Shown piece after piece: positions 45,216 to 49,475 of a DNA stretch of 64,000 nucleotides. Positions within the stretch are counted from its first letter, which is position 1. Each line of letters opens with the position of its first letter. The notes beneath the pieces are model-generated. The model had not been told where the DNA came from and did not search any database. It saw only the letters and a list, made by a program, of their open reading frames with translations. The translations under genes and the position numbers were made by a program. The DNA lies in NCBI GenBank assembly GCA_019637875.1, contig JAHBUW010000016.1, forward strand, positions 1 to 64,000. The letters run 5' to 3'. This stretch comes from Pseudobdellovibrionaceae bacterium. GTDB taxonomy: Bacteria; Bdellovibrionota; Bdellovibrionia; Bdellovibrionales; Bdellovibrionaceae.

Positions 45216-45632
45216 ATGAAACAACGCCGGAACATCTTCGCCGTCATCGTCATCTTTCTGGGACTGTCGCTCATCGCGGGCGATCTGGCCGCCCGGTCGC
45301 GCGTGCAATCGCTCGCGCAAGAGCTCGTGCAGATGGATCTCGAGGGGACGCGTTGGTCGCTGGCCTCGAAACTTTTGGACTCGGGTTATCCCGCGCGTTG
45401 CGTGAGCGATCTGCTCGTCGATCTGTCGCTCGCCCATGTCACGGTGACCGCGATGAACGAAAGCTGCGTGTTGGGGGCGGGCGGCGCGGACACCTGCAGC
45501 TTCCGCTCAGCGGGAGAAACCGAGGGCCGCGTCGGACTGGGGCTGCATCGTTTAGAGTCGTGTCGGCGCCTCGCGGGTGAACGGGCGCTCGACGCCGAGG
45601 TCCGCTGGCCGTCATCGGCCGCCCGTTTCTGA
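45216..45632 (+). CDS. small membrane-anchored protein, unknown function
   Basis: 138 residues from the ATG at 45216, preceded by TAGGAGG (45206-45212). An N-terminal membrane helix (residues 6-25, NIFAVIVIFLGLSLIAGDLA) is followed by a helical stretch (RVQSLAQELVQMDLEGTRWS) and a Cys-containing region (ARCVSD, ESCVLG, DTCSF, ESCRRL). Four Cys may form disulphides in the periplasm. The helix lacks a prepilin motif. It sits directly upstream of two pseudopilin-like genes and may be a minor component of the same system. The frame extends upstream to 45156 without a good start. Confidence 0.65.
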   Translation: MKQRRNIFAVIVIFLGLSLIAGDLAARSRVQSLAQELVQMDLEGTRWSLASKLLDSGYPARCVSDLLVDLSLAHVTVTAMNESCVLGAGGADTCSFRSAGETEGRVGLGLHRLESCRRLAGERALDAEVRWPSSAARF

Positions 45633-45751
45633 ACCCCGTGGGTCTTCGCGAGAGGTGGCTTATTTCGGGACGTCTCACCGGATGATTCTTCGCGGTTTCT
45701 TCAAGGCGTTTTCCGTTCCCCTAAGAGACAATACTCGAGGGGGATGCTGTT

Positions 45752-46642
45752 ATGTCGTTTCGCGCTTTCGCCAATGAGCGGGGGTCCAGCCTCGTTCAGG
45801 TTCTGATGGTTTTGGTCGTCTCGGCCGTCACGAATTTGGCTTTGATGAACCTCTTGTCCGATCAAGGACGTCAACACCGGGACATTTACGTTAAAACCTC
45901 GGCCCTCGCGATCCGTCAGAATCTGATGGGCGTGATGAGCAATCACGCGGCGTGGGCGAAAACGCGCGGCAAGTCCGCGTTCATGACCTGCCGTGGGGCG
46001 AAAGACGATTCGCCTTATTGCTGGGGTCAGCCCTACCGCAAAAGTCCGGGCGACAATCGCGGCCCCGCGAGCGTCTCGGGCGGCGTCGCGGAAAAAACGA
46101 TCGTACCGGCCGCGGTCTCGCTGAACCTGTACGACGCGCGTGGCGAGCTTGTGCACTCCAATGATCCGGATGCGGGTTACACGGCGACGGGCGAGCCTTG
46201 CACCGGTTTCAAGGATAGCGGCAACGACGACTGTCCGTTGAAATTCGATGTGGAGTGGCGTGCGGTCTGCAACAGCGTCACGTGCAGCGCCACCGATTTT
46301 TCCGCGCCGGAGTTCGTGACGATCCGCGCACGCTACGCGCCGAAGTCCCGCGAACTCGAGACCGCCTTCAATCCTTTGAATTACGGATTGGTCGAGCAGA
46401 ATCGACTGCTCTTCGCGGCGCAGGCGTCACCGGCGCTCGACTGCGCGATGAAGTCGCGCATCTTCGTGGGGCCGGGCCGCCAAGTGAACGGTCTGACCGC
46501 GGACGGACAAGGTTGCATCGCCTACGAAGCCTTCTACGGTCCGCGCGGTGAGCGCGGCACGAAAGGCGATCGTGGATTCACGGGCGCGACGGGACCTCAA
46601 GGACCGCAAGGTCCGGCGGGCGCATCGGCGGTGTGCCCATGA
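45752..46642 (+). CDS. pseudopilin-like protein with C-terminal collagen-like tail
   Basis: 296 residues. The N-terminus (MSFRAFANERGSSLVQVLMV) matches a prepilin leader ending in Gly10 or 11, then a helix of about 20 residues. The usual Glu at +5 is replaced by Gln, so processing may be unusual. The globular part has six or more Cys (GKSAFMTCRGA, DDSPYCWGQ, GEPCTGFKDSGNDDCPLKF, VCNSVTC) and ends in ten uninterrupted Gly-X-Y triplets (residues 263-292: GPR GER GTK GDR GFT GAT GPQ GPQ GPA GAS) before AVCP. It is paralogous to the next gene over most of its length. The next ATG overlaps its stop (ATGA). Confidence 0.85.
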   Translation: MSFRAFANERGSSLVQVLMVLVVSAVTNLALMNLLSDQGRQHRDIYVKTSALAIRQNLMGVMSNHAAWAKTRGKSAFMTCRGAKDDSPYCWGQPYRKSPGDNRGPASVSGGVAEKTIVPAAVSLNLYDARGELVHSNDPDAGYTATGEPCTGFKDSGNDDCPLKFDVEWRAVCNSVTCSATDFSAPEFVTIRARYAPKSRELETAFNPLNYGLVEQNRLLFAAQASPALDCAMKSRIFVGPGRQVNGLTADGQGCIAYEAFYGPRGERGTKGDRGFTGATGPQGPQGPAGASAVCP

Positions 46643-48012
46643 GAAATCCGTTTCGCGAGCAGCGCGGTTTTTCGATGACCGAGATTCTGGTCGCCTCGGC
46701 GGCGCTCAGCGTGACGCTGATTTTCAGCGCGCGGATGATCGCGGTGAATCAACATCATCTGCAAGTGAACATGGCCGCCTTCAACATCGACGGTCTGCGC
46801 ACGATGGCGCTCGGCGCGCTGACCGAGCAGCACTCTTGGAACCTGACCATCGCGGGCAATTCCGACATGGCCTGCGCGCAAAGCAGCTCCATCTCGTGTC
46901 CGGCGCAGATCACCCATGGTGACGGGATGCTGATCGATCTTTACGGACCCGACGGTCGGCGGATCATCGACAAGCGCCGCTTCGCCGGGTTCACCACCAG
47001 TGGCACCGCCTGTGACGAGTTCGATGAAAACGGCAACGACCGCTGTCCCTTACGTATGGAAGTGCGCTGGCGTCTGGAGTGCGACGGTAGTCCTTGTCGT
47101 TATCCGAATGAAGTCGTGACGGTCGTTTTCCGTTACGCGCCCAAGTCGACGGACCCGTTGATCGGCAACGTCGCGCGTTTCAATATCGTGAACTTCAACC
47201 GTCGCGGGATGTCCCACGAGGTCTCGCCGGTCGTGGCCTGCGCGGCGATGAATCAAACCTTCGTCGGTTTCGGCAAGTCCGTGACCAATGGGGAGGGCTT
47301 CATCACGGCGGCGAATTCCATGGGCTGCGTTTCGTCGGCGGCCTTTAAGGGCCGCACCGGTTTTCGCGGACTGCTGGGCGAAACGGGACTGACCGGCGCG
47401 CGCGGTCCGGCGGGCGCACGCGGTCCCGCGGGGCATGCGTATCCCGCCGGGACGAGTTTGAGCTCCATCACGTCGGGTTCGGGCTCGGGCTCGAGTTCCG
47501 GCGCCGGCGGAGCCGGAGGCGCGGGTGGGGCGGGCGGCGGCGTCGCGGGCGGCACGGGGGTCACTGCGGGCACGGGAGGACCGGTCATTCCGGAAGGGAC
47601 CGATCCCAATGTCGTGTGCAGCTCATATCCCCAAGTGTGTCAGTGGTATCTGCAATATCTGAATCGTTACCCCGAACCTTCGGGCGCGGCCTACTGGGCG
47701 TCCTCCTTGGCGAACGGGGTGTCGCCCGACGTGATCGAAGATTACTTCCGGTTGGTGGCCTCGGGCGGTGATCGGGTCGTCGAGGGCTTCGACGCCGTCG
47801 GGGCGTGGAACGACATCGCGGCGAAGAAAAACCTGCCCACGGGATTCAACGGCGAATTCTGCACGAACTCGGTCGAGTGCTCGAGCCTGAGTGCCGAAGC
47901 CCACGCCGAATACGCGAAGGTCATGGACGCCTACTGCTCGGCGAATCCTTCGAAGTGTTACATCGTCTACGGCGTCGGCAACTCCGAAACCCGGCGCATG
48001 GCGGGCGAGTAG
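46639..48012 (+). CDS. pseudopilin-like protein with collagen-like and DUF4214-like domains
   Basis: 457 residues from the ATG at 46639, which overlaps the previous stop. The prepilin motif G|FSMTEILV with Glu at +5 (Glu15) is intact. The Cys-rich globular domain is homologous to the previous protein (NGNDRCPLRMEVRWRLEC versus SGNDDCPLKFDVEWRAVC). Nine Gly-X-Y triplets (residues 238-264) follow, then a Gly/Ser/Ala linker (280-315) and a C-terminal domain resembling DUF4214 (residues about 333-380: YLQYLNRYPEPSGAAYWASS). It ends with Cys-containing helices. The domain mix (pseudopilin, collagen, DUF4214) is unusual. It is probably the tip or surface part of a filament. Confidence 0.85.
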   Translation: MRNPFREQRGFSMTEILVASAALSVTLIFSARMIAVNQHHLQVNMAAFNIDGLRTMALGALTEQHSWNLTIAGNSDMACAQSSSISCPAQITHGDGMLIDLYGPDGRRIIDKRRFAGFTTSGTACDEFDENGNDRCPLRMEVRWRLECDGSPCRYPNEVVTVVFRYAPKSTDPLIGNVARFNIVNFNRRGMSHEVSPVVACAAMNQTFVGFGKSVTNGEGFITAANSMGCVSSAAFKGRTGFRGLLGETGLTGARGPAGARGPAGHAYPAGTSLSSITSGSGSGSSSGAGGAGGAGGAGGGVAGGTGVTAGTGGPVIPEGTDPNVVCSSYPQVCQWYLQYLNRYPEPSGAAYWASSLANGVSPDVIEDYFRLVASGGDRVVEGFDAVGAWNDIAAKKNLPTGFNGEFCTNSVECSSLSAEAHAEYAKVMDAYCSANPSKCYIVYGVGNSETRRMAGE

Positions 48013-48224: not shown

Positions 48225-49475
48225 TTAATTCAAGACGGTGAAATCGATTTCGACCTGGAACTGCTCGAGTTCGCCCAGATTCAATCCCTCATTGAGGATG
48301 ATCTGGTTCGTATCGGGCAGGTAAGTCCAACCTTTCAGGTCGCCCTTCGGCAAGACCTTGCCGTTCATTTTCACGGTGATCGGCTCGGAAACGTCCGGCA
48401 CTTTCTTCAGGACGATTTTGAAGTTCATCGCCTTGTTGATCAAAGTGCGTCCCAGTCCCGCCATCTGACCGCCGAAATCTTTCGTGCGGAGGTCAAACGC
48501 CGAACCCTTCATCAAACGAACGAGTTCCGCGATCTGTTCGGGACCCTTCAGGGCCGGCACGATCGCCGGATCCACCGAATAGTCCGCGCAACGCGAAAGC
48601 GATCCGTTCGGGAACGCTTTGTTGAACGAGGTCAGTCCCGGGTTTTGACCCTTTTGGAACTGAACCATTTCGTCCAAGCGCGCCAGCGCCGCGAGCACCG
48701 TCACGGTCGCTTCGCCACGGACTTTCGATTTCAGGTCCGCCGCCAGAACGGCCGCCTTCATCGTTTTCGACGGATCGATCATATCGGGCGTCGCGTCTTC
48801 CGTATCGGTGACCATCACGATCGCGAGATGGGCTTCGGGACGGCGGAAACCCGCGTTCACTCCCGACAGCATTTCGTCCGACAACGCCGCCATCACGGGC
48901 GAGAAGAGCTCTTCCGTTTCGGGACCGGTGGTCGCCGGGTTTTTCGGATCGTAAGCTTCAAAACCGACGTACAGGGTTTTCGAAAGCGTATTCGCGAGAT
49001 CCTTGGTTTTCGGCGTCACGAAACGGACGTTCGAACCCTGACCGTAGACGGGACGGAGTTCGCCGTTTTTATATTTGCGGTTCGCCGTTCCGTAGAGCTT
49101 CGAGTCCCACGTTACGGTCACGCCGATGTGGAAATCGATCTTGTCGTTTTTCAGGAAGCCTTCGACGAAACGATTGATGTTCTTCGCCAGGGAAGCCTGG
49201 TCCGAACACATCGACTGCGAGGTATCGACGACGAACAGAATGTCCATCGGGACGGCCTTCTGACCGGCCAGATCTTCCTTCTGCGTGAACTTCTCTTTCG
49301 CGCCCGGTTTCGGCGGCGCTTCGTTTTGTTTTACGGGATCGAACGAAGGCTTCACCGGGGGAATGTAGACTTCCGGAGTCCCGGTCAAATCCGAGTTCAC
49401 GGGCTGCACGCAAGCGGCGAGTCCCAACATCATCGAGCCGACGACGAGCGCCGGTTTCAAAAAGTGGTTCATCAC
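48225..49475 (-). CDS. VWA-domain lipoprotein, last gene of the envelope-machine cluster
   Basis: 416 residues with a lipoprotein signal (MMNHFLKPALVVGSMMLGLA, then AC with Cys22). After a Pro/Lys linker comes a von Willebrand factor A domain with MIDAS DxSxS in DILFVVDTSQSMCSDQ and later strands HLAIVMVTDTEDATPD. The C-terminal part (ITVKMNGKVLPKGDLKGWTY) forms a beta domain as in the lipoprotein at 35809. The start overlaps the previous stop (ATGA). VWA proteins near ExbB/D-type motors often mediate contacts with other envelope or extracellular proteins. Its role in this machine is inferred from position. Confidence 0.85.
   Translation of the reverse strand: MMNHFLKPALVVGSMMLGLAACVQPVNSDLTGTPEVYIPPVKPSFDPVKQNEAPPKPGAKEKFTQKEDLAGQKAVPMDILFVVDTSQSMCSDQASLAKNINRFVEGFLKNDKIDFHIGVTVTWDSKLYGTANRKYKNGELRPVYGQGSNVRFVTPKTKDLANTLSKTLYVGFEAYDPKNPATTGPETEELFSPVMAALSDEMLSGVNAGFRRPEAHLAIVMVTDTEDATPDMIDPSKTMKAAVLAADLKSKVRGEATVTVLAALARLDEMVQFQKGQNPGLTSFNKAFPNGSLSRCADYSVDPAIVPALKGPEQIAELVRLMKGSAFDLRTKDFGGQMAGLGRTLINKAMNFKIVLKKVPDVSEPITVKMNGKVLPKGDLKGWTYLPDTNQIILNEGLNLGELEQFQVEIDFTVLN

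Follow-up and report, generated by a model that had tools for sequence, protein, structure and literature searches.

Tandem Minor Pilins With Length-Matched Collagen-Like Tails in Bdellovibrionales: Candidates for a Heteromeric Rod at a Type IV Filament Tip

The Overlapping Gene Pair A and B

The window, that is, the whole stretch of 64,000 nucleotides analyzed here, carries the two genes A and B on its forward strand. They had been described in the original prediction as adjacent, overlapping paralogues, and both open reading frames were confirmed. GTG 46633 is a possible start of B, and ATG 46639 was the likelier one in the ORF analysis because it creates a four-base ATGA overlap with the stop codon of A, which is the usual kind. 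A stops only four residues (AVCP) past its collagen tract; B continues through a Gly/Ser linker, present as claimed and predicted to be disordered, into a C-terminal tail. Orthologues of A were found at L036, L037, L086, L087, and L088. The features of the pair are as follows.

45752..46642 (+): gene A, 296 aa; prepilin lacking Glu5 (G↓SSLVQ), with pilin head and neck, then 10 Gly-X-Y triplets and AVCP at the C-terminus
46418..46540 (+): neck of A, SPxxxCA...FVG...AD..GC...AFxG, abutting the collagen tract (neck profile search)
46538..46627 (+): Gly-X-Y tract of A at residues 263-292, GPR GER GTK GDR GFT GAT GPQ GPQ GPA GAS (shuffles; PF01391)
46628..46639 (+): last four residues of A, A-V-C-P
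46639..48012 (+): gene B; Glu5-bearing prepilin (G↓FSMTE) with pilin head and neck, then 10 Gly-X-Y triplets, a Gly/Ser linker, and a DUF4214-like tail
47215..47352 (+): neck of B (neck profile search)
47350..47439 (+): Gly-X-Y tract of B at residues 238-267 in the numbering from ATG 46639, GRT GFR GLL GET GLT GAR GPA GAR GPA GHA
47440..47580 (+): Gly/Ser-rich flexible linker of B, predicted to be disordered (sequence and AlphaFold2 pLDDT)
47602..48009 (+): end module of B, DUF4214-like and with Cys (PF13946 at E 0.0019, short of the curated cut-off)

Prepilin Features of A and B

Judged from sequence and models, the N-termini of A and B are those of prepilins, as had been proposed, and not plain membrane anchors. 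The family profile was compared with solved pilins (TcpA 8uhf, PilE1 8pfb, and geopilin 2m7g), and the predicted +1 position fell on residue 1 of the mature protein. In the AlphaFold2 models, a single unbroken N-terminal helix spans residues 13-62 in B and 9-63 in A and is followed by strands; the head and neck of both proteins were modeled confidently, with pLDDT mostly above 90. Both proteins thus combine a class III signal peptide with a long helix on a beta-sheet head. In the NCBIfam scan, TIGR02532 (prepilin cleavage/methylation domain) matched B with 18.7 bits against a cut-off of 16.3, and the Pfam model N_methyl (PF07963) scored above its cut-off in one orthologue of B. A has the short leader and the hydrophobic helix. 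The residue at +5 is Gln in A and Glu in B, where the G↓FSMTE motif is intact, both in agreement with the earlier claim, and the Gln of A resembles known capping minor pilins. A Foldseek search of the PDB with both models returned no usable fold match for the heads. Genes for two prepilin peptidases and for six or more pilus/secretion ATPases are present in the source genome, and no pilus machinery genes were recognized beside the pair.

Collagen Tracts and the Neck

The tract of A had been counted as 10 triplets, which was correct; that of B had been counted as nine and in fact has 10, since the last unit, GHA, had been missed. Ten triplets were reached in none of 5000 composition-preserving shuffles of either protein. 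The Pfam Collagen model (PF01391) matched A with an E-value of 1.3e-5 and 25.3 bits, slightly below the cut-off of 27.2. Over 11 tracts, Pro occupies 53 of the 107 X positions, and most Y positions are Thr, Gln, or Arg. Each protein therefore has the uninterrupted Gly-X-Y repeat with a Pro-rich X position that characterizes collagen-like proteins. In the monomer models the tract and tail were of low confidence or disordered, as for any single chain, with pLDDT below 50 for residues 257-348 of B.

The head, which contains Cys in both proteins, is joined to the tract by a neck of some 41-46 residues with what looks like a pair of Cys (SPxxxCA...FVGxG...AD..GC...AFxG). The neck profile search gave 14 strong matches, 13 of which have at least eight triplets; the remaining one is a paralogue in G007 with two triplets followed by a Ser-rich linker. 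Because the neck was found almost only together with the tract, this pattern suggests that it sets the register of the collagen tract. At 6-11 triplets and lacking hydroxyproline, the tracts may not be long enough for stability unless their flanks clamp them. All six A proteins have a Cys at the identical position beyond the final triplet, and an inter-chain disulfide there could lock the end of the rod.

G007 holds two close paralogues (L089 4605-5635 and L092 7617-8765) with the neck in common. One has 10 triplets, and the other has two, followed by Ser-rich and Pro-Gly-Gln-Pro repeats. By its sequence, this pair looks like a natural case in which the collagen rod was lost or exchanged.

Tract Lengths Agree Within Tandem Loci

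Collagen pilins were found in 7 of the 141 genomes of the order, namely G000 (the source genome), G007, G024 (two loci), G065, G074, G139, and G098; those of G065 and G007 are solo proteins. The original prediction depended on the tracts being conserved, and they are kept in orthologues of A and B at four more tandem loci in three other genomes. The numbers of triplets in A and B were 10/10 in the window, 10/10 and 8/8 in G024, 9/9 in G074, and 11/11 in G139, where a second A-like gene located elsewhere likewise has 11. In a permutation test on six tandem sets (the five A+B loci and the three-gene operon of G098), a small sample, only 2 of 720 pairings matched the lengths equally well. Glu5 was absent in six of six A proteins and present in five of five B proteins.

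The identity of X and Y residues within a pair was 0.12-0.39, and the mean between pairs was 0.19. A and B fell on opposite sides of one branch in 200 of 200 bootstrap trees, the branch itself being weakly supported (83/12, all rows). These comparisons indicate that A and B are old, separate paralogues and that their tracts are not copies of one another. Recent gene conversion was considered as the source of the likeness of the tracts and was unsupported, given the low identity within pairs and the separation of A and B in the tree.

A triple helix requires three chains of similar length. The lengths vary between loci and agree within each, and A and B are old paralogues, so the simplest cause would be that the tails wind together. 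The equal tract lengths strongly support trimerization, and trimerization between different chains.

Searches were extended to contigs, PADLOC, and a plasmid collection. With a single-sequence query, the contig profile search returned no match; with an alignment query, the only true match was Bdellovibrionales bacterium CSSed162cmB_279, which has the same sequences as G139. An Anabaena ORF matched by the alignment query was rejected as a chance match, as it has neither prepilin nor collagen features. PADLOC and the plasmid collection gave no match.

A Three-Gene Operon in G098

A distant locus (L153) was reached independently with a profile of the neck only. It consists of three overlapping tandem prepilin genes with exactly 6/6/6 triplets, intact on one contig of G098, a genome rated 8% contaminated, so that its species is uncertain. 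Glu5 is missing from one chain and present in the other two; a non-Glu5 cap with Glu5 partners, the composition of an HIJK-type tip complex, is thus found both in the A/B pairs and in this operon. Beyond the tract, all three chains have a stretch rich in proline, an identical PPFTPPSPKWSD motif, and C-terminal ends that resemble one another; one of them ends in an S74 chaperone domain.

For the two-gene loci, a trimer requires a ratio of 1:2 or 2:1. We prefer an A:B stoichiometry of 1:2, because the G098 operon has one chain without Glu5 and two with it. G139, with two A-like genes and one B gene, fits a strict A1B2 composition poorly.

The same loci bear on the alternative that A trimerizes with itself and B with itself, each making a collagen rod or a tip of its own, the equal lengths then reflecting shared ancestry or spacing limits. 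A review describes prokaryotic collagens, including bacterial collagen-like proteins, as homotrimers (PMC8968730), and the solo proteins of G065 and G007 would need either to form homotrimers or to find their partners elsewhere. However, the lengths differ between loci (6, 8, 9, 10, and 11 triplets) and match inside every tandem set, with A and B forming separate old groups. Moreover, an operon of exactly three single-copy chains fits a three-chain heterotrimer, and a filament tip accommodates few minor pilins. We consider separate homotrimers unlikely and prefer a rod wound from different chains.

It was also considered that the Gly-X-Y tracts are a mere extended flexible spacer, polyproline-like or disordered, which joins the head to the end module and forms no triple helix. 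Such a spacer would need neither a strict Gly at every third residue, kept over 6-11 units in all collagen pilins found, nor the Pro-rich X and Thr/Gln/Arg-rich Y positions, nor an equal length in two proteins. A, furthermore, ends straight after its tract and has only a Cys left to space. The spacer is favored by the shortness of the tracts and their lack of hydroxyproline, by the G007b tract, which is cut to two triplets with a Ser-rich linker instead, and by the Gly/Ser linker that B already has past its tract. On balance it appears quite improbable, and a triple helix of different chains is retained as the preferred reading.

The End Module of B and the Neighboring Genes

The DUF4214 model (PF13946) scored 18.7 bits on B of the window and 17.5 bits on its orthologue in G139, both below the cut-off of 23.2. 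The tails of these two proteins are alike over 49 residues, and their pilin cores group together in the tree (90/84). The end modules of B differ by locus, being DUF4214-like in the window and G139 and of other kinds in G024 and G074. A lipoprotein of the same genome (L055 3191-4639) has several DUF4214-like repeats by eye and a weak match to the tail of B.

An ORF of 138 aa lies upstream of the pair (45216-45632). It encodes an N-terminal hydrophobic helix and four Cys and has a good ribosome-binding site and a coding-like base composition, which bears out the small four-Cys membrane protein of the original prediction. Its membership of a conserved unit was rejected: no relative was found in the order's 140 other genomes, where the best match (E 0.025) lay in a frame interrupted by stops. 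The conserved synteny suggested for the three genes thus holds for the A+B tandem and not for the upstream gene.

Lipoproteins with an (F/Y)QNC or TNC lipobox adjoin most collagen-pilin loci (L036, L037, L088, L089, L090, and L091). In the window, the neighbor (48225-49475) is a lipoprotein in convergent orientation, and its match to vWA is weak.

A Wider Family of Modular Minor Pilins

The pilin core of A and B belongs to a larger family, matched in 67 of the 141 genomes of the order at E 1e-6 and often arranged in tandem clusters. Most members have no collagen and carry other C-terminal modules, including TSP1, fibrinogen-C-like, Big_9, Calx-beta, RCC1, and S74 chaperone domains. By these architectures, the family is a Bdellovibrionota set of modular minor pilins, which are distinguished by a non-pilin domain C-terminal to the pilin module; in B this place is taken by the collagen tract and the DUF4214-like tail. 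The family thus follows the strategy of S. sanguinis PilB/PilC (PMC8179133; PMC9934059), with an analogy in the Kil tips of Myxococcus (PMC12075869). Both Glu5 and non-Glu5 members occur in 16 of 23 multi-gene clusters, and the median length is 280 aa for non-Glu5 members against 389 aa for those with Glu5, in each case over loci that were not independently chosen.

Several family pilins (L041, L085, L097, L048, L099, and L038) end in animal-like or phage-like modules, namely thrombospondin type 1, Calx-beta, an RCC1 propeller, Big_9, and the S74 chaperone. The source genome has three further tandem prepilins on contig C9 (L054 2178-6299), about 15 kb from a prepilin peptidase. One contains a vWA-like DxSxS stretch by eye, with no Pfam match, one has a fibrinogen-C-like end (E 4.7e-4), and one is short with Gln5. 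Divergent from this cluster is a lipoprotein (L054 607-2010) in which an astacin-like metalloprotease motif, HEIGHIVGLDHE, was seen by eye.

Collagen in general was rejected as a signal of such pilins. PF01391 occurs in 59 of the order's 141 genomes. Most of these matches are long tracts in secreted proteins, some of more than 100 triplets (G048 and others), and among the proteins fetched there was no true prepilin outside the collagen-pilin group. PilY1 (PF05567) had no match in the 141 genomes of the order, and the control genomes were likewise without a match, so that its absence is not established. Modular minor pilins could replace PilY1 in this order.

Proposed Assembly of a Collagen-Rod Tip

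Adhesive end modules on modular pilins are well documented, as are tip complexes (PMC8179133; PMC9934059; PMC10191384), and known tip complexes are capped by a subunit without Glu5 (PMC10191384). We propose that A and B, either minor pilins or pseudopilins, probably assemble together into an alternative type IV filament tip complex, where a short collagen rod of mixed chains would display a binding module. More specifically, different minor pilins encoded in one operon, two or three in number, would twist their length-matched Gly-X-Y tails into one triple helix and form a rigid, exchangeable tip rod in Bdellovibrio-like bacteria; we regard this narrower proposal as evenly balanced.

In the proposed mechanism, A and B would be inserted into the membrane and cut by a prepilin peptidase at G↓S/F. 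Their long helices would pack, with A, which lacks Glu5, as the cap and B, which has it, joining the filament below. The neck and the pilin heads would gather three chains in register, in the window as A:B 1:2 or 2:1, and the equal tracts would form one heteromeric triple helix, possibly locked at its end by the Cys of A. From the standard rise per residue, a rod of 10 triplets is about 8.6 nm long. It would keep the linker and DUF4214-like module of B off the filament end, and the module would bind a ligand on a surface, in a matrix, or on prey. Because the module of B differs between loci while the pilin, neck, and rod stay constant, the unit would act as an interchangeable tip. Judged from the lineage, a putative role in attachment to prey or surfaces is plausible.

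That the pair instead caps a T2SS-like pseudopilus, with the collagen/DUF4214 part taking up a secreted substrate, is very doubtful: the non-Glu5/Glu5 logic is common to the T2SS HIJK tip (PMC10191384) and several secretion-type ATPases are present in the genome, but, in contrast to core pseudopilins, these genes are orphans with a patchy spread over 7 of the order's 141 genomes, most end modules in the family are of the adhesion type, and a rod of about 8-9 nm would be awkward within the periplasm.

If the heteromeric tip rod is correct, register-matched different chains encoded in one operon would be a natural bacterial collagen heterotrimer and would offer a simple model of how chains are selected and brought into register, and type IV filaments would gain a new tip part, a collagen rod with an exchangeable binding module. 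The lineage of A and B includes predators whose prey recognition is poorly understood. Moreover, the three-gene operon makes the stoichiometry directly testable.

Comparison With Known Systems

A and B had been presented as having a domain order for which no described system was known. This holds for the literature searched on collagen together with pilin, pseudopilin, or Bdellovibrio, where no collagen pilin was found; the supplement of 264 architectures of PMC8179133, which lay outside the search, could hold one. As proteins, A and B belong to a known kind, the modular minor pilins; it is the collagen-pilin system that was not found in the literature. No described heterotrimeric bacterial collagen was found there either, and a heterotrimer of A and B has a fair chance of being the first of its sort in bacteria.

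Scl1/Scl2 and Legionella Lcl share with A and B the use of bacterial Gly-X-Y tracts as surface rods (PMC8968730; PMC11162425) and gave weak NCBIfam matches. However, they are not pilins, are described as homotrimers, and match A and B in the tract only. The mosaic fibers of Bdellovibrio are trimeric surface fibers with variable tips (PMC10769870), and the S74 chaperone domain occurs also in one chain of the G098 operon; they differ in not being pilins, and the text of PMC10769870 mentions neither collagen nor pilin.

The HIJK tip complex of T2SS and T4aP resembles A and B in that minor pilins are capped by a non-Glu5 subunit (PMC10191384), and differs in having no collagen and no neck. In the Pfam and NCBIfam scans no model of the H, I, J, or K subunits scored above its cut-off, and the heads of A and B had no PDB fold match; A and B are therefore not classed as HIJK, only as working like it.

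Interchangeable minor-pilin tips are known in the predator Myxococcus xanthus (PMC12075869). Its Kil Tips, KilLMN, are like A and B, by description, in being orphan minor-pilin cassettes, and the KilLMN tips are heterotrimeric and interchangeable with variable end domains (PMC12075869). They belong to a Tad-type pilus, and the text of PMC12075869 does not mention collagen. Streptococcus sanguinis PilB (vWA) and PilC (lectin), together with PilA, also resemble A and B, each being a pilin with a grafted C-terminal binding module accompanied by a small minor pilin at the tip (PMC8179133; PMC9934059), a likeness in which the relation shown by sequence is that of the pilin N-terminus. PilB and PilC have no collagen tract, whereas at the loci described here two or three paralogues have tracts of equal length.
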